Shown in pieces: positions 23,033-32,469 of a stretch of 44,005 nucleotides of DNA (position 1 is its first letter; every line of letters starts with the position of its first letter). A model generated the notes under the pieces. That model had not been told where the DNA came from and searched no databases. It saw nothing but the letters and a program-made list of their open reading frames with translations. The stretch covers positions 1-44,005 of the forward strand of contig REGH01000001.1 of assembly GCA_003702495.1 (NCBI GenBank), read 5' to 3'. The DNA comes from Candidatus Nitrosopumilus sp. (GTDB lineage: Archaea > Thermoproteota > Nitrososphaeria > Nitrososphaerales > Nitrosopumilaceae). A program made the translations under genes and the position numbers.

Positions 23033-23719
23033 TTGAAATCCCTCTTTATTGGTGGAACCGACACTGATGTTGGTAAAACCTACATCACAGCAGGTCTGGC
23101 AGTCGCACTCAGAAAGATGGATGTAGATGTAGGTGTGATGAAGCCCTTTGCAGCAGGAACTGCTCAGAAGAAGGGATACAAATCTGAAGACGTTGAAATT
23201 TTAGCAAGAGCTGCACAATCATCTGATCCTGAAAATTTGGTAAATCCACAGTTCTTTCCAATTCCTGCATCGCCATACACTGCTTGGAAGAATCTAAAGA
23301 TAAAACCCAAAGTTTCTACCATATTATCTAGTTTTAAAAAATTATCAACACTTCATGAGATGCTTCTTGTAGAGGGAATGGGTGGAATGATGACTCCGAT
23401 CCTCAAGGACTATTACATTACAAATTTGATTAAAGAAATGAAGATTCCAACAGTAATTGTAACTAGAAGCAAGGTAGGAACTGTTAATCATACCATAATG
23501 ACAATTTTGATGTGTCAAAAATACAAGATTCCAATCAAAGGAATTATCATCAATAATTTTGATGATGATGGCTATCCTGTAAAAAATCTAAAACGAGATT
23601 TGGAAAGCCTTACTGGTGTTAATGTTCTAGGCTCTATTCCTTTTATCAAAGATATGAGTGATGCATCACTCAATAGAATCTTCAAAAAGAATCTTGATTT
23701 GAAATCTCTGTTGAAATAA
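23033..23719 (+). CDS. bioD: dethiobiotin synthetase
   Basis: 228 residues. The P-loop with family extension is clear (FIGGTDTDVGKTYITAGLAV), then the Lys-containing VMKPFAAGT and the LLVEGMGGMMTPI motif. It closes the ureido ring of dethiobiotin from diaminononanoate, CO2 and ATP. The start is TTG; no in-frame ATG or GTG is available upstream before a stop. Its stop abuts the 3' end of a kinase remnant on the other strand. Confidence 0.95.
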   Translation: MKSLFIGGTDTDVGKTYITAGLAVALRKMDVDVGVMKPFAAGTAQKKGYKSEDVEILARAAQSSDPENLVNPQFFPIPASPYTAWKNLKIKPKVSTILSSFKKLSTLHEMLLVEGMGGMMTPILKDYYITNLIKEMKIPTVIVTRSKVGTVNHTIMTILMCQKYKIPIKGIIINNFDDDGYPVKNLKRDLESLTGVNVLGSIPFIKDMSDASLNRIFKKNLDLKSLLK

Positions 23720-23721
23720 TC

Positions 23722-23964
23722 TCATGCTTTAGGTATTGTAAAAAGAAATACTGTTCCTTTTCCCTTTTCACTTTCCAACCAAATCTTTCCGCTCATTCCC
23801 TCTACTAGTTCTTTACTTACAACCAACCCTAACCCTGTGCCGCCATATGTTCTTGTCATACCTGTTTTTATCTCACCATATTTTTTAAATATCTGATCTT
23901 GTTTTTCTTTAGGAATTCCGATTCCGTTATCTTTTACAAAAAATGTAACTTTGTCTTTTTCATC
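23722..23964 (-). pseudogene. 3' remnant of a histidine kinase (HATPase_c) gene
   Basis: About 80 codons encode VTFFVKDNGIGIPKEKQDQI, FKKYGEIKTGM, YGGTGLGLVVSKELVEGMSG, KIWLESEKGKGTVFLFTIPK and stop. This is almost the same as the end of the 964-residue kinase (27494-30388), so it is a decayed paralogue. The N, sensor and HisKA parts are gone; upstream the frame joins the start of a receiver gene. Confidence 0.85.
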
Positions 23965-24007
23965 GTTTCAATCATTACTAGATTATCATCAATAACTAAT
24001 ACCTTCA
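23965..24007 (-). pseudogene. 5' remnant of a response regulator gene
   Basis: From an ATG at 24007 the frame reads MKVLVIDDNLVMIET, the first strand and acidic pair of a CheY-like receiver, and then runs out of phase into the kinase remnant at about 23964 and stops. A deletion that removed most of a receiver gene and most of a kinase gene explains the junction. Confidence 0.7.
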
Positions 24008-24040: not shown

Positions 24041-24409
24041 TCACTTTAATTCTTTAGTGTCGTGTATTTTTGCTATTAAATCATCTGGGTCTATGGGTTT
24101 TTTCAAAAGTAAATTAATACCCAATTGTTCTAGCTCCATTTCTTGTTCTGATGTGATTACAGATGCTGTTAAAACAATAATTTTTGATTTGAGTACCAAT
24201 CCATCTGAATTTATTTTTTTTAGAAAATCCCACCCTGAAAATTTTGGCATATTTAGGTCCAATATGACAACATCAAAATTATTTTTTTGAATTAATTCTA
24301 AACCGTTTCTGGCATTATTGGTATCCATAGCATCAAAATTTTTTTTATTTAGATATTTTACTAACATGGATGAAATACTAGAATTATCTTCAATAATCAG
24401 AATTTTCAT
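24041..24409 (-). CDS. single-domain response regulator (CheY-like)
   Basis: 122 residues, a stand-alone receiver. The acidic pair is in MKILIIEDNSSIS, the phosphoacceptor Asp is in FDVVILDLNMPKFSGW, the Thr in IIVLTAS and the Lys in LLLKKPIDPDDL. There is no output domain, so it acts by protein contact or as a phosphate shuttle. It overlaps the PAS kinase upstream by 20 nt, which makes that kinase its likely partner. Confidence 0.93.
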   Translation of the reverse strand: MKILIIEDNSSISSMLVKYLNKKNFDAMDTNNARNGLELIQKNNFDVVILDLNMPKFSGWDFLKKINSDGLVLKSKIIVLTASVITSEQEMELEQLGINLLLKKPIDPDDLIAKIHDTKELK

Positions 24410-25697
24410 TTTGTCTTACTCTCCTTAATCTTCTATTTTGATTGGTGATATTAAATGGAATTTGAAAATACACTGTTGTACCTATTCCTACAGAACTCTC
24501 TACCCATATTTTCCCACCTAATATGTCGATTATTCCCTGACATATTGCTAATCCTAATCCCGAACCCCCAAATTCTCTATTTTGAGAAAAATTTGCTTTA
24601 TAGAACTTTTCAAATATTTTATCAATGTCTTCTTTTTTAATTCCGATCCCGTTATCTTTCACTAAAAATGTAATCTCATTTTCATTATGAGATGCTGAAA
24701 TCTGAATTTTTCCACTATCATTTGAAACAAAATCTAAAGAATTTAGAATGAGATTTTTAAAAACTTGTTTTAATCTATTTGTATCAGATTTGAAATTTAA
24801 TGAATCTGATGTGCCATTACTAAATTCTATTCCTTTATCATCAAAAAATATTTTATTTTCATTATAAACATCTGTCATGAATTTTTTTAATTCTATTTCC
24901 TGAAAATCTAATGATAGTCTACCTAAATTGATCTTTTGTAGGTCTAATAAATCTGAAATTAAACTCTCCATTTTTTTACAATTACCATAAATCTCTTCTA
25001 ATGAATTTTTTTGTTCTTCGTTAATTTGACCATATGTTTCATCTAACAAAGTTTTTGATTGAAATTTTATTGGAAATAATGGTGTTTTTAATTCATGTGA
25101 TGCCATCGAAATAAATTCGTCCTTTAACTTATCTGTCCTCTCTAAACCTTCTACTTTTTCTTTCAAAAGTTGCTCATATGCTCTTTGAATGAATTCTATT
25201 TGCTTGTCTTCTGATTTTTTGGAAATTATTACCATTTTTCCAAATGGCTGTCCTGAATTATCTGTCATAATTCCAATGTCTAATTTAACAGGAATCAAAT
25301 GGTTTTCTATCTTTAAGTTTACTTCTACATTTTTAGAAATTCCGTATTTTTCTAATTCTTTTTTAGATTTTTTAATTACTTTAATACTATCTTCAGTACA
25401 AAACTCAAACCATGATCTTCCTTTAAGATTTATTTTTTCACCTCCAAAAATTTCTCTCACTCCATCATTATGCATTAAAACCTGATTATTGTTATCAAAA
25501 ATTATAATGCCCTCCGGTGATAAATTAAAGATATTTCTGAATTTTTCTTCTGATTCAAGAAGTAGTTTTTGAGTTTGTTTTAAGAACTTGTTGGACTGAG
25601 AAAGAATTTCGTTACTTTTTTTAAGTTCAACATTCTCTTTTTCTAATTCATGCAAGTTGTCTTGACGTTTTTCAGAATTCACAGAATGTGTATACAT
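24390..25697 (-). CDS. cytosolic PAS histidine kinase
   Basis: 435 residues without membrane segments. Coiled-coil start (1-50), PAS domain (about 51-165, FRNIFNLSPEGIIIFDNNNQ), HisKA with the phosphoacceptor His201 (SMASHELKTPLFPI), then HATPase_c with N box (LILNSLDFV), G1 (KDNGIGIKKED) and G2 (GGSGLGLAICQGI). It should sense a cytosolic signal and phosphorylate the receiver encoded directly after it. ATG chosen; GTG/TTG alternatives are not needed. Confidence 0.93.
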   Translation of the reverse strand: MYTHSVNSEKRQDNLHELEKENVELKKSNEILSQSNKFLKQTQKLLLESEEKFRNIFNLSPEGIIIFDNNNQVLMHNDGVREIFGGEKINLKGRSWFEFCTEDSIKVIKKSKKELEKYGISKNVEVNLKIENHLIPVKLDIGIMTDNSGQPFGKMVIISKKSEDKQIEFIQRAYEQLLKEKVEGLERTDKLKDEFISMASHELKTPLFPIKFQSKTLLDETYGQINEEQKNSLEEIYGNCKKMESLISDLLDLQKINLGRLSLDFQEIELKKFMTDVYNENKIFFDDKGIEFSNGTSDSLNFKSDTNRLKQVFKNLILNSLDFVSNDSGKIQISASHNENEITFLVKDNGIGIKKEDIDKIFEKFYKANFSQNREFGGSGLGLAICQGIIDILGGKIWVESSVGIGTTVYFQIPFNITNQNRRLRRVRQNENSDY

Positions 25698-25732: not shown

Positions 25733-26686
25733 TCAAAAATTATTTTCATTAATTCTATTGTTATCCACTAACACTGTAAAAGTCATCTTTGTAAATTTTC
25801 CAACTTCACTTTCCACCCAAATTTGACCTCCTAATAGTTCTGTTAATCTTTTACATATTGCCAATCCTAACCCAGTTCCACCATGTTTTCGTCTCAGTGT
25901 TGTGTCAACTTGATAAAATTCTGTAAAGAGACTACTCTGATCTTCTTTTTTAATTCCAATCCCATTATCTTTGATCGAAATTTTTACTTTATCTCCATCC
26001 TTATGTGCATTAATTTCAATTAGACCTGTATTTTCACTTACAAAGTCTATGGAATTATTGATCAAATTATTAATAATTTCACCCAATCTTAATTTGTCAC
26101 TATTCAGTGTAATGTCATCCACATTAAACTGCATTTTGATATTTTTTTCTTTGATAATATTATTTTGTAATTCAATTATTTCTTGAATAAATTTTTTCAA
26201 AGTAAATTTTTCATTTTTTATAGTAATTTTACCTAGCACAAGTTTTTGAATTAATAATAAATCATCAATTAAAATTTGAAGTGTTTTTGCACTATTTTCG
26301 ATTTTTTTTACCATGTCTAATTGTTCATCTGTCATTTTATTTCTAAACTTTGGATGGGTTAGAACTTCGCAGTATCCAAAGATTGGACCCAAAGGTGTTT
26401 TTAATTCGTGTGTAATCATGGATGTAAACTCACTTTTTTGTTTGTCTAATTCTTGCAATCTGACAATTTTTTCTCTAGTTTGTTCTTTGATTATTTCTTT
26501 TTCCGTTTCTTCTAATTCAATTTTAATTTTATTTTCTATGTATTTCTTTGTAGCAATATAAGCCAACCCGACTAAAAGATAACCGATTATTGCTACAACA
26601 TAAGATAGATTGCTTACTGAAAATCCTTCTAAATTATCTAGAGTTAACCGTAAATCTTTGTTTAGAATTGTAATATTTTTATACTG
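25733..26686 (-). pseudogene. kinase half of a CHASE histidine kinase, downstream of an in-frame stop
   Basis: Open without a stop from 26686 to the TAA/TGA end at 25733. It starts with a membrane-outside stretch (NKDLRLTLDNLEGFSVSNLS), then a membrane span (YVVAIIGYLLVGLAYIA), a linker helix, HisKA with His in SMITHELKTPLGPIFGYCEV, and a complete HATPase_c (DNGIGIKKED, GGTGLGLAICKRL). It is in phase with the CHASE frame upstream and separated from it only by TAA (26689-26687). A TTG at 26566 inside the membrane span would give a shortened 277-residue product without the anchor's first half. Confidence 0.8.
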
Positions 26687-27490
26687 TTAAAATTCATTTT
26701 TTCCAAAATTAGTACTTTTATTATAATCGTAAACTGTTCTTCCTTCATACTCTATTTTCATTTGAAATTTATCCGCATCACTTCCAAATGATTCCTCAAA
26801 AACATTTTCCAGAATTGGATCATACCTAAAAGCAAGCGTGACAAATCCCTCTGGACTATTTTTTTCAATATCTGAAAATATGGTATGACAAATCAATGAT
26901 GCATAAATCGGGTCTTCTATATCTTGATTTAAAATTAAAATTTCTGAAAGAACTGGCTTTTTAATTTCAATGCTTTCTAAAGTACACAGTCTGCGTTTTT
27001 CCTCAAATGCATTATCATAACCTATCAAAAATTCTAATTCTTCACTATATGGCGATATGTATTTTATTGGAAAATAAAATTCTGAACTACTCTCAGGAAT
27101 AATTTCATAGTTTTCCATTTCCTTTTGCATCTCCAATTCAAAATTTTCTTTATTATTCGAATTTACATATCCTACATATGAGACTGTGATTGAATCATCA
27201 AATCTATTTGATAGTTCTAATGATTTAATAAAAACATCCCATTCTTCAAAACTAATTTTTTCAGAACCTGCGTTAAACCCTCTGCCAGCGTAAACAACAT
27301 GTTCATAATCTTTTAGTCTATCTACTAACGCATCTGTCATCTTATCTAAACCCTGTTTCAATTCTTCATCTAATTTGTTAAAATCTTCATAAATGCTATC
27401 TGCTAAAGCAATAGTAACTATAGAAAATGCTATTAACAAAATAATAATCGGTTTTTTACCGTCCGAAACTAATCCACTACTCTGTTTCAT
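26687..27490 (-). pseudogene. CHASE sensor half of a split histidine kinase
   Basis: 267 residues. An N-terminal membrane span (KPIIILLIAFSIVTIALA, about 13-30) and an extracellular CHASE domain (VVYAGRGFNAGSEKISFEEW, then the region around VSYVGYVNSNN and PEGFVTLAFRYDPILE). It ends in TAA exactly where the second membrane span and kinase should follow, and those do follow in the same frame. It starts 3 nt after the 964-residue kinase. The likely origin is a nonsense mutation of a 585-residue kinase; a sequencing error or a real split gene are alternatives. Confidence 0.8.
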
Positions 27491-27493
27491 AAT

Positions 27494-30388
27494 CTACGCC
27501 TTTGGTATAGTGAAGAAAAATGTTGCACCTTTACCTTCTTCACTTTCTAACCATATCTTTCCGCCCATTCCTTCCACAAGTTCCTGTGAAACTGCTAAAC
27601 CCAATCCAGTTCCTCCAAACTTTCTTTTTGCATCTGATTTTACTTGGCCATATTTTTTGAACAACTGATCTTGTTTTTGTTTTGGAATTCCTTCTCCATT
27701 GTCTTTACAGAAAAATGTGACTTCGTTTTCACCATCAGTTACTCCGATCTCAATTTTTCCATTTACAGGTACAAAGTCATGTGCGTTTAAAATCAAATTT
27801 GTATATGCTTCTAGTATTCTTCTCTTGTCTCCTTTTATCTTGACATCCTCTGAATGTGACTCAAAATATTGGATTTTTTTGTCTGTCATTGCAGGAGAGT
27901 GAGTTTTGATACACTCTGCAAGAATATTCTTTGAAGAAAGTTCTTCAATTTCATATTTCATTGCGCCTGCACCTAATTTTTGTGCTGAAACAAGATTGTC
28001 AATCATGGACAGTTGTCTTGATGCATTTGCCTGAATTTCTTTAACACACTCCATCTGCATATCACTTAATTCGCCCATTCCTGCCATGGTCAATAATTCT
28101 GCGTTTCCTTGAATTGGGACCAGAGGTTGTTTAAGATCATGTGTGATCATAGCTACAAATTCTTCTTTTTCTTTTTGTGACTCTTCAATTTTCTTTAATG
28201 ATTCGGCTAACTTTTCTTCCAATTCCTTTTGTTTTGTCAAATCCATTCTAATTGCCATGTATTGTTTTGGCCTTCCATTCTCATCTAGGAATGGGGTGAT
28301 TACTGTATTGACCCAGTAGGTTGAACCATCTTTTGCAATATTTTTTACAACACCTGTCCACACTTTTCCTTTTGAAATCGTTCCCCACATTCCGTCAAAA
28401 AAGCTATCTGGATGAAATCCTGATTTTAGAATTCTGTGATTCTTTCCAAGTAACTCTTTTTCAGTATATTTAGAAATGTCTTCGAATTTCTTATTGGCAT
28501 AAGTGATTGTACCTTTTTCATCAGTTATTGCAGTAATTGTTGAGTTGTCCAATGCTTTTAGAACATTATCTTTTTCCTCTTTTTCTGATTTTAATTTAGC
28601 AACTGTTTTGTTCATAATTTCAGATAATTGGCCAATCTCATCAGATGTTTCAACAGGAACATGAGTGTCTAATTTACCGTCACTGATCTTTGATGCTAAG
28701 TCCTTCAATTTTATCAACGGATTTGAGAAAAGTCTTGAAATTGATACTCCAAAAATTGCAGAACCAATAATGAATACACTTGCTAAAGTGATAATATCCT
28801 GTCTTAATTGATTTGATGGGGCATATGCCTCTGAAACATCAATCTTTGATACTAGACCCCAATCTAAAACTGAACTATATCTCCATGATGCAAGAACCCC
28901 TTCTCCCCTGTAGTCATTTGCAATTCCAGAGCCTCTCATGCCGTCCATTGCCTTAAATCCTAACTCACACATGGAATAATCCTCACACAAGATAGAGCCA
29001 CTGACTAATTCATTGTCTAGTCTGACATTATGAAGAACTGAGATCTCATCATCAATGTAAGATACAATAAAACTCTCTCCCGTATTTCCAAAATAAGTCT
29101 GTTTCATAGTATCTAAAAGAACTTGATCAATTGGTACATCTAACATCAATAAACCAAGCAATTCTTCATTGCTGTTTTTGATTGGTGCTGTAACAAAAAG
29201 ATCTAGCTTTCCATCAACACCCATATCTTTGAAAACTTTAGAAATGTAAACATCTTTTTTGCCTTCTTCAAAACTTGGTTTGTGCATGTCTTGCATTTTG
29301 ATTCCCATTAATTCTTGAAAGTCATCATTTGATATGTAGATTAACTCCCCATTTGTATTGGCTACTGCAATGTTATCGTATCCGTATGCGCTTTGAATAA
29401 TCTTTATCCTTTCATCAACTTTGATTTTTGACGCCAAGTATTCTGGATTATTTTTATCTTCTAATCCCATTTCCAAATTTTTAATTTCATTTTTGAGAAT
29501 ATCCAAATTACTATTTACTTGAGCATCTGCAATTCTTTCCTTAAACAACAATTCAATCTTTGATAGTGTGTTGTCTGCTTGTTCGTTTAGATTTAATAGA
29601 ATATCACGTTCAATATTGTCTTGCGATAAATTGTAAGACGCGGCACCAATTACAGAAATTGGAATAAAAGAAACAACCAAAAACGAAAATATCAATTTAG
29701 CTGAAATAGGAATTCCTCTTTTTCGCTTAACTTCTTTTTCTGAGTATTTTGAAATCCCCAATGAAATTAGTGCAATTCCTGAGAGGCAAAATGCAATTGC
29801 AGTGTGTACTGCCATAGCTCCACTAATTTGAGAGATTTGATAGTATAGTTCAGGAATATCTGTTGCATATCCAATTAACGCAACAACTCCAAAAATCATC
29901 ACAATCACGCCTGAAATTAGGACATATTTTTTGTATCTTTGATGAACAAGTAATGAAGTAAAACCTACAACATTAATCACGATAAAACTAATGGCAGTTC
30001 CCAAAGACGTTAAACCTGGTTTTAGAGTGTATATTGCTGAAACATCATCTTTGACAAAAAGACTGTTCACTCCAGAATTTGTATCTGAAAATAAACTAAC
30101 CAGCGAAGTTCCCATAAAGAACATTATGATAATCAATGGTGCAAAAAGTAGAATTCTTGAAACCTCTGAATTGTTGTTTCTGTACTCATTCATCAGTAAA
30201 ATAACAATACCGCTCATCAGAAATGATGCAGCAGTACTGAACTTCATTGTGACCCATGTTGGTGAAAGACTCTTTAGACTGTCAATGTCTAAAATCCAAC
30301 CTGAAATAACAACTAGTCCAATAATGATAATTATTGCACAGATTAAACGTGTAATTGTAGAGTAAGATTTTGTCTTAGTTTGCTTCAA
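27494..30388 (-). CDS. large multi-pass histidine kinase with Cache, HAMP and PAS domains
   Basis: 964 residues. Six hydrophobic segments (about 13-210) form an integral-membrane sensor-like part; a seventh (about 228-249) leads to a large extracellular Cache-like domain (250-525, with YGYDNIAVANTNGELIYISN and VTAPIKNSNEELLGLLMLDV). Then an eighth span, HAMP (about 555-605), a PAS-PAC pair (about 615-735, FHPDSFFDGMWGTISKGKVW), HisKA with His750 (THDLKQPLVPIQGNAELL) and HATPase_c (DNGEGIPKQKQ, GGTGLGLAVSQEL). It begins directly after the binding protein gene, which is its likely ligand partner. Confidence 0.92.
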   Translation of the reverse strand: MKQTKTKSYSTITRLICAIIIIIGLVVISGWILDIDSLKSLSPTWVTMKFSTAASFLMSGIVILLMNEYRNNNSEVSRILLFAPLIIIMFFMGTSLVSLFSDTNSGVNSLFVKDDVSAIYTLKPGLTSLGTAISFIVINVVGFTSLLVHQRYKKYVLISGVIVMIFGVVALIGYATDIPELYYQISQISGAMAVHTAIAFCLSGIALISLGISKYSEKEVKRKRGIPISAKLIFSFLVVSFIPISVIGAASYNLSQDNIERDILLNLNEQADNTLSKIELLFKERIADAQVNSNLDILKNEIKNLEMGLEDKNNPEYLASKIKVDERIKIIQSAYGYDNIAVANTNGELIYISNDDFQELMGIKMQDMHKPSFEEGKKDVYISKVFKDMGVDGKLDLFVTAPIKNSNEELLGLLMLDVPIDQVLLDTMKQTYFGNTGESFIVSYIDDEISVLHNVRLDNELVSGSILCEDYSMCELGFKAMDGMRGSGIANDYRGEGVLASWRYSSVLDWGLVSKIDVSEAYAPSNQLRQDIITLASVFIIGSAIFGVSISRLFSNPLIKLKDLASKISDGKLDTHVPVETSDEIGQLSEIMNKTVAKLKSEKEEKDNVLKALDNSTITAITDEKGTITYANKKFEDISKYTEKELLGKNHRILKSGFHPDSFFDGMWGTISKGKVWTGVVKNIAKDGSTYWVNTVITPFLDENGRPKQYMAIRMDLTKQKELEEKLAESLKKIEESQKEKEEFVAMITHDLKQPLVPIQGNAELLTMAGMGELSDMQMECVKEIQANASRQLSMIDNLVSAQKLGAGAMKYEIEELSSKNILAECIKTHSPAMTDKKIQYFESHSEDVKIKGDKRRILEAYTNLILNAHDFVPVNGKIEIGVTDGENEVTFFCKDNGEGIPKQKQDQLFKKYGQVKSDAKRKFGGTGLGLAVSQELVEGMGGKIWLESEEGKGATFFFTIPKA

Positions 30389-31531
30389 TTATTGTTCAAC
30401 CTCCGAACTCATTGCACCCTGTGTTGATTCAAATTTTAATTCACCATCTACAATTTTTGAAGGATATAGACCAAACTTGATATCTTGATTTTGAGGATAT
30501 CCATAAATTGTTCCAAAAATTCCAGTGTAAATAAATCCTGAATCAAATGATTCTTTAAGATTTTCTCTTGTAATTTCTTTATCATCTAATAGGCCCTTGA
30601 TTATTCTAATCACATCGTAACTGTTTGCTCCATTATGATCTAATTGTTTATCAAACTTATTTTCAAATCTTATTCCAACTTCAGTGGCTAGTTTTAATTT
30701 TGTATTGTATACTAGAGGGGCTGCAATGTGAACATTTTGAGCCTCTGCCATTTGAAAAATATCAAACATGGCACCATCTGAAGACATCAAAATCTCTCCC
30801 TCGTAATTAGACTGATCAATCTCTTTGAGAATTATTTTGACATGATCTGGAAATCCTACTAGGTAAATTGCCTCCTGATCTTTTAATCTCTCAATATTTT
30901 CTAGAAATTCTTTTTGATTATTTTCAAATGGTTCATCCACGACATTTCCTTTTAGAGAAAAGTTTTCTCCTACTTCTTTTGCAATTGATCTTCCAAATTC
31001 GTCGTCCAAATATAATATTCCTAAACTTTTGATTTCCAAATCATCTAATATTTTCAAAATTGGCTTTGCTTCATCTTCTGCCATTGGAAAATATCTAAAA
31101 GTCCATTCTTTTCCCGCAGTTACATCTGGTGCAACAGCTGATAGTGATACTAGCACAACTTTTTCTTTTTCTGCCATTTCTGAGAGTCCTGTTGAAATAA
31201 AACTCAGTGAGCTGATGTGTAATAGTGGTTCATAACTTTGTTCTTGAAAGTTAAAAATCTCTTTTGCTTTTTCTAGATCCGTTTGATTATCTTCAATGAT
31301 TAAATCAATTTGTTTTCCTTTAATCCCTCCTTTATCATTAATCTCTTTAACTGCTAGTGTTAATCCGTCTCTTTGCTCAATACCTATTCCGCTCCCCGGA
31401 CCTGAGATTGGAAGGTTTGCGACGATTTTGATTTCATCAACTTCTGAATCTTGCTCCATAGAAGAAAATGCAACAATTGCTAAAGTGACTGCAATAATTC
31501 CTATTGGGATTGACAACCCTTGTTTTCCCAA
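30389..31531 (-). CDS. periplasmic binding protein (branched-chain amino acid type), with no transporter
   Basis: 380 residues. An N-terminal membrane segment or signal (IPIGIIAVTLAIVAFSS) precedes a type I periplasmic binding fold: KIVANLPISGPGSGIGIEQR, GLTLAVKEINDKGGIKGKQI, then LGILYLDDEFGRSIAKEVGE. This is the family of Leu/Ile/Val and amide binding proteins. No permease or ATPase is near; instead it is flanked on both sides by kinases and its stop abuts the 964-residue kinase. It probably serves as an extracellular ligand sensor. Ligand unknown. Confidence 0.88.
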   Translation of the reverse strand: MGKQGLSIPIGIIAVTLAIVAFSSMEQDSEVDEIKIVANLPISGPGSGIGIEQRDGLTLAVKEINDKGGIKGKQIDLIIEDNQTDLEKAKEIFNFQEQSYEPLLHISSLSFISTGLSEMAEKEKVVLVSLSAVAPDVTAGKEWTFRYFPMAEDEAKPILKILDDLEIKSLGILYLDDEFGRSIAKEVGENFSLKGNVVDEPFENNQKEFLENIERLKDQEAIYLVGFPDHVKIILKEIDQSNYEGEILMSSDGAMFDIFQMAEAQNVHIAAPLVYNTKLKLATEVGIRFENKFDKQLDHNGANSYDVIRIIKGLLDDKEITRENLKESFDSGFIYTGIFGTIYGYPQNQDIKFGLYPSKIVDGELKFESTQGAMSSEVEQ

Positions 31532-31554: not shown

Positions 31555-32469
31555 TCAATGCGCAATACCGTATTGTTTAGATTTTCGTGGAAGATTTATG
31601 GTAAATGTTGTACCTTTGCCTTCTTCACTTTCAACAGAAATCTTTCCATTCATTCCTTCAATGAATCCTTTAACAATTACTAGTCCTAAACCTCCCCCTC
31701 CATGTGCTCTTCTGTGCGAAGTGTCAATCTGATGGAATTTTTTGAAAAGTTCATTGTGTTTTTCTTTTGGAATTCCTGAACCATTATCTTTGACTTTAAA
31801 TTCTATTGAACCATTCTGTGATTTTGCCTCGATTATAATTTTACCATTCTCTGGAACAAAAACAATTGAATTTTCAATTAAATTGGAAAAAATTTGAATT
31901 AATTTAGAGTTGTCTGCATAAACATTAAGATTTGATTCTATATTTGTTGAAAATGATATTTTCTTCTCCATAACAGAATTAGAAAATTTATTTGAAATTT
32001 TATTAAAAAATTCTGTAACATCAATTAATTCCAAATGATATTTTATCTTACCCAACTCAAGCTCTTGAGCATTCCAAAAATCATTAATCAAAACATTCAA
32101 TCTATTTGAATTAACTTGAATTTCATTTAGAGCTTCTTTTTGAAAATCATCTAACGGACCTAATTTTTCAGAATTTAACATCTCGCAATATCCGAGAATT
32201 GGTACGAGAGGAGTTCGTAATTCCCTTGGAAGAATATCTAGTGAATCTGCTTCTTCCACTCTTTTTTGTTTTTCAATTATTTGCTCTATCAAAATCTGTA
32301 ATTCTAAAATATTTTTCATGATTTCTTTAACTGCATCATACTGATCATTTGTTAATTTACCAAATTTTGGATTTAGCAACATCTCACAATATCCCAGAAT
32401 TGGAACTGTTGGTGTTTTTAGTTCATGACTGATTAAATCTATTATTTGACCTCTTTTAGAAATTGCCAT
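31555..32469 (-). CDS. histidine kinase with two HisKA units, the second lacking the His
   Basis: 304 residues, no sensor and no membrane span. The first HisKA unit starts almost at the N-terminus with His15 (DLISHELKTPTVPILGYCEM). A second, very similar unit follows (DILPRELRTPLVPILGYCEM), where Arg82 stands at the His position. A complete HATPase_c follows (NLIENSIVFV, KDNGSGIPKEKH, GGGGLGLVIVKGF). It lies 23 nt after the receiver gene and 23 nt before the binding protein gene. It probably takes its signal from partner proteins. Confidence 0.9.
   Translation of the reverse strand: MAISKRGQIIDLISHELKTPTVPILGYCEMLLNPKFGKLTNDQYDAVKEIMKNILELQILIEQIIEKQKRVEEADSLDILPRELRTPLVPILGYCEMLNSEKLGPLDDFQKEALNEIQVNSNRLNVLINDFWNAQELELGKIKYHLELIDVTEFFNKISNKFSNSVMEKKISFSTNIESNLNVYADNSKLIQIFSNLIENSIVFVPENGKIIIEAKSQNGSIEFKVKDNGSGIPKEKHNELFKKFHQIDTSHRRAHGGGGLGLVIVKGFIEGMNGKISVESEEGKGTTFTINLPRKSKQYGIAH

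Follow-up and report, generated by a model that had tools for sequence, protein, structure and literature searches.

An archaeal CHASE sensor histidine kinase gene interrupted by one in-frame TAA, probably through a recent nonsense mutation

Introduction

In the archaeon Methanococcoides burtonii, the histidine kinase LtrK carries an extracellular CHASE domain whose ligand is unknown, and the protein has been shown biochemically to respond to temperature (PMC4823666). The locus described here, from a Candidatus Nitrosopumilus genome, resembles LtrK by description, being an archaeal histidine kinase gene with an extracellular CHASE domain; LtrK, however, is intact and biochemically characterised, unlike the present gene, which a single in-frame TAA divides in two. 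Bacterial genes with maintained in-frame stops, TAA included, have been described, the stop being common to several genomes (PMC7918605). For archaea, the stop codon redefinition reported in the literature concerns UAG or UGA (PMC8211752). We analysed the locus in its context, a stretch of 44,005 nucleotides (hereafter the window), and compared it with the same gene across the archaeal family.

Results

The CHASE frame (27490-26687, minus strand) begins with ATG and encodes 267 amino acids before the TAA, after which 317 sense codons continue in the same frame up to a TGA at 25733, giving a joined frame of 585 codons (Table 1). A preliminary description had reported this arrangement, with the second membrane span, the HisKA domain and the HATPase_c domain all downstream of the TAA and with 40 codons, none of them a stop, between the TAA and the first ATG, GTG or TTG (the TTG at 26566). 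Its coordinates and counts proved right, and Pfam and hydropathy analyses agreed with its domain assignments. In the Pfam search, the upstream part matched CHASE at residues 78-246 (1.6e-20; 74.1 bits against a cut-off of 25), the lowest score among full-length family members, and the part after the TAA matched HisKA (3.5e-14) and HATPase_c (5.3e-29), with the phospho-acceptor His of HisKA and the N, G1 and G2 boxes of HATPase_c all present. CHASE sensor histidine kinases carry sensor and kinase in one uninterrupted frame; here the TAA at codon 268 interrupts it, and the locus is a broken, not an active, member of this class.

Table 1. Features of the interrupted CHASE kinase locus and its operon, in positions of the window
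Feature	Position	Strand	Remark
Receiver	32882-32493	-	
HisKA/HATPase kinase	32469-31555	-	
Periplasmic-binding protein, Peripla_BP_6	31531-30389	-	
HAMP/PAS histidine kinase, sub-threshold dCache match	27494..30388	-	upstream neighbour, 3 nt before CHASE start
CHASE sensor frame, 267 aa + TAA	26687..27490	-	TM1 and extracellular CHASE without the final beta-hairpin
In-frame TAA, codon 268 of the joined frame	26687..26689	-	variable alignment column; start of predicted strand 268-275
40 sense codons, stop to first possible start	26567..26686	-	covers the final two sensor strands and most of TM2
Second transmembrane helix, residues 295-313	26552..26608	-	hydropathy; helix 294-364 in model
First downstream ATG/GTG/TTG (TTG)	26564..26566	-	inside TM2
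Kinase part, HisKA + HATPase_c, ends TGA	25733..26566	-	H, N, G1, F and G2 boxes intact
PAS histidine kinase, intact	24390..25697	-	downstream neighbour, 35 nt after kinase frame
Receiver	24409-24041	-	

At 27.8% GC, the chance that random untranslated codons contain no stop is about 6e-15 for 317 codons and about 0.016 for 40. Between 5.5 and 6% of single substitutions in the downstream codons create a stop; a second stop is expected with 95% probability at d = 0.057 neutral substitutions per site, and none is present. For the 40-codon gap alone the same limit is much weaker, at 0.43. The lack of a second stop in the 317-codon tail thus means either that the break is young or that the tail is still translated.

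Another reading is that the TAA undergoes readthrough, yielding full-length kinase in small amounts. The intact tail accords with such readthrough, and maintained in-frame stops are known from prokaryotic genes (PMC7918605), but the codon is TAA and not the UAG or UGA of known archaeal redefinition (PMC8211752). The stop is also absent at this column in intact relatives, so that the conservation of the stop that marks programmed readthrough is not seen. A search for a suppressor tRNA found no TTA anticodon among the roughly 40 tRNAs of this 92.8% complete genome (41 candidates, for all but one of which ARAGORN gave an anticodon); at this completeness the result counts as supporting evidence. 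Together these points leave readthrough barely credible. The one tRNA left uncalled by ARAGORN (L116; G000:C87:18687-18752) reads by eye as an Arg tRNA with a CCT anticodon; its D-arm region contains an insert that is probably a non-canonical intron.

We then considered where the stop falls in the protein. Hydropathy of the joined frame placed TM1 at residues 15-33 and TM2 downstream, so that two membrane helices flank the CHASE domain on opposite sides of the TAA; the TTG at 26566 corresponds to residue 309. An AlphaFold2 model of the joined frame, in which the TAA was read as Ser (alignment A1, 15 sequences), had a mean pLDDT of 81.7 and a pTM of 0.49. In this model codon 268 is the first residue of strand 268-275, the second-last sensor strand, which is followed by strand 278-286 and then by the long helix that starts with TM2. 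Histidine kinase cores dominate among the matches listed in a fold search of the joined model, and a PDB sequence search with the CHASE part returned chance matches only.

This placement bears on a split kinase, in which a CHASE chain and a separately started kinase chain would act together. In its favour, each half is an open frame, and a TTG is available in frame for the kinase. That TTG, the first downstream start, lies inside TM2, however, and a kinase begun there would have a membrane-helix fragment only; the upstream chain, ending at the start of strand 268-275, would on the predicted fold lack the last two sensor strands, which form the final beta-hairpin, as well as TM2. With these parts missing and the sole downstream start inside TM2, two cooperating chains are unlikely. 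A start of its own ahead of all needed parts, conserved in relatives, is not found, and no relative has a two-gene arrangement. The 40 codons that such a kinase would leave unused still encode the strands and TM2. In random sequence, 40 codons would lack a stop with p = 0.016, although by mutation alone this stretch could stay open to d of about 0.4. A split kinase therefore appears very improbable.

To place the locus among its relatives, we searched 250 family genomes for CHASE (PF03924) and obtained 20 loci not cut by a contig edge. The gene is an unbroken single ORF of 543-870 codons in 17 of them, and the joined frame of the window matches this usual size. Relatives with separate sensor and kinase genes, which the preliminary description had named as a finding that would speak against an interrupted gene, were absent from all 250 genomes. 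The three interrupted loci are the one in the window and two decayed genes: one (L120, G198:C58:15200-17600) contains several stops (TGA, TAG and TAA), and the other (L119, G057:C10:41606-42339) carries one frameshift, the remaining CHASE and the kinase being intact in another frame. The alignment to relatives is continuous across the TAA and on through the final extracellular strands and TM2. At the TAA column the relatives vary (S, T, K, L, E, H and others), so that several different sense codons could plausibly have given rise to the TAA by a point mutation, and none of the intact relatives aligned has a stop there. The locus thus combines intact single-frame homologues with a stop inside a conserved domain, as a nonsense pseudogene does.

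Searches for closer copies were negative. At the DNA level, 100 relatives contained no close copy of the locus, and no conspecific or DNA-close copy occurs among the genomes searched. A scan of genome contigs with the CHASE part gave one weak, irrelevant match, and a tblastn search of plasmids gave distant CHASE proteins only. Among the 17 single ORFs is a locus of a related archaeon (L030, G142:C14, 1492-3117) whose C-terminal half, judged by eye from the alignment, is apparently a class III nucleotide cyclase and not a histidine kinase.

The CHASE kinase locus lies within a same-strand (minus) run of two-component genes, whose successive gaps are 23, 23, 0, 3, 35 and -20 nt. With gaps of 0-35 nt or an overlap, true junctions in this operon have starts near the preceding stop. 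We also scanned about 416 kb of the genome (19 overlapping stretches plus the window, overlaps included) for same-frame junctions, defined as an open segment of 150 codons or more followed in the same frame by another of 250 codons or more. Among the 11 junctions found, the 40-codon gap from stop to start in the window was by far the longest; the next was 18 codons, and most were 0-13. A scan for an internal promoter, built for bacterial promoters, gave nothing beyond shuffled sequences.

Just past the run lies the relic of a deleted gene (23706-24007, minus strand), in which the start of a receiver-like gene is joined to an HATPase_c tail. The DNA of this tail is 74% identical to 27480-27729, including bases just past the stop of that gene, which points to tandem duplication and deletion at work in the operon region. 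The relic is a supporting case of decay in the same operon. Elsewhere in the run, the kinase at 31555-32469 (minus strand) contains two HisKA copies in tandem: the first retains its H-box (SHELKTP), and the copy adjoining HATPase_c reads PRELRTP, so that its phospho-acceptor His is gone. The spacing between the Peripla_BP_6 protein (30389-31531) and the HAMP/PAS kinase (27494-30388) is zero. No ABC permease gene is present in the operon run, and the Peripla_BP_6 protein is possibly used for sensing.

A further reading is that the gene is intact and that the TAA is either a wrong base in the assembly or a minority allele that entered the consensus of a mixed sample. The assembly comprises 93 contigs and is 92.8% complete, a single substitution would suffice, and no catalytic box of the kinase is damaged. 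Since the reading frame does not change across the TAA, such an error would have to be a substitution and not an indel. Indels are the commoner type of assembly error, and no frame-shifting indel is seen at the locus. In the scanned 416 kb there is no other long same-frame pair without a nearby start, so errors of this kind are not frequent in the genome, and the same type of gene has decayed in two independent relatives. We consider an assembly error unlikely.

Finally, the two halves of the gene differ in how far they have diverged. Counting columns at least 80% conserved in the family, with relatives scored leave-one-out, the CHASE half of the window gene keeps 23 of 50, against 40-50 of 50-54 in each of 16 intact relatives, whereas the kinase half keeps 23 of 29, inside the relatives' range of about 76-100%. 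Leave-one-out profile scores gave the same contrast: 128 bits for the CHASE half against 235-294 in all relatives, in a comparison that takes in two relatives from another family of the order, and 163 bits for the kinase half, within the relatives' 157-276. In trees, the branch of the window gene is 2.21 for CHASE (the next longest being 0.84) and 0.64 for the kinase. A nearly invariant Trp before TM2 is Leu in the window protein.

Since the frame stayed open while the sensor diverged, this divergence must be older than the stop. Pseudogene drift after the stop was considered as its source and rejected, as drift that large would leave many stops; the decayed gene of G198:C58, which keeps 28 of 29 conserved columns in its readable part, also opposes it. 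The divergence therefore arose in a translated protein, by a change of ligand, under weak constraint, or by recombination between a distant CHASE domain and the local kinase. The kinase half has relatives of 44-47% identity joined to unrelated sensors, so domain exchange is possible. On this pattern, the sensor may have changed its ligand or come under weak constraint ahead of gene loss. Alternatively, the rapidly diverged CHASE part could have turned into a separate membrane-anchored extracellular protein with the kinase translated apart. This would be a split of sensor and kinase observed at its very onset, the stop being tolerated because the sensor had lost its ligand-sensing role earlier; we regard this as highly improbable.

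Discussion

We interpret the locus as a recently broken CHASE histidine kinase gene of a fast-changing two-component operon, with one nonsense mutation to TAA at codon 268, a reading to which we assign a probability of about 0.7. It is favoured because the relatives are single ORFs, siblings decay likewise, and no usable downstream start exists. Of the four options offered in the preliminary description, the nonsense mutation is thus the best supported and an assembly error is possible, but the split kinase is disfavoured and readthrough is unsupported.

Under the nonsense-mutation reading, the ancestral gene would have encoded one membrane-bound CHASE sensor histidine kinase in the order TM1, extracellular CHASE, TM2, HisKA and HATPase_c. 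Its sensor half would have diverged first, with the frame still open, and the point mutation that breaks the gene would have come later. Translation would now end within the extracellular sensor and yield a membrane-anchored sensor without its last beta-hairpin and TM2. The kinase would not be made, or at most weakly from the TTG at 26566 without a full membrane helix, in which case extracellular sensing could not reach it. The retention of all catalytic boxes in the kinase half would also fit continued use.

If real, the break is a fresh one in a sensor of a small archaeal genome, and a small case of the gain and loss of environmental sensors in ammonia-oxidising archaea. Gene callers will annotate two proteins at the locus, a CHASE-only protein and a soluble kinase, and probably neither of them works as a sensor. 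What deserves specialist attention is how strongly the sensor has diverged beside a kinase that is normal.

Prokaryotic nonsense pseudogenes and genes with maintained stops share with this locus a coding sequence that is intact but for one in-frame stop (PMC7918605). That study requires the same stop in at least two genomes, whereas the stop in the window occurs in a single genome. CHASE kinases of the family (for example L032, L048 and, in the same genome, L049) have the same order of parts as the window gene, TM1, CHASE, TM2, HisKA and HATPase_c, are 560-566 amino acids long compared with 585, and are 42-43% identical to it in the kinase domain. Unlike the window gene, they have no interrupting stop, and 45-47 of 51 conserved columns are kept in their CHASE halves, compared with 23 of 50 in the window gene. 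Set beside these systems, the locus most likely represents an ordinary gene that broke recently, not a new mode of sensor splitting: the observation is real and the biology ordinary, with the diverged sensor as its one mildly unusual feature.
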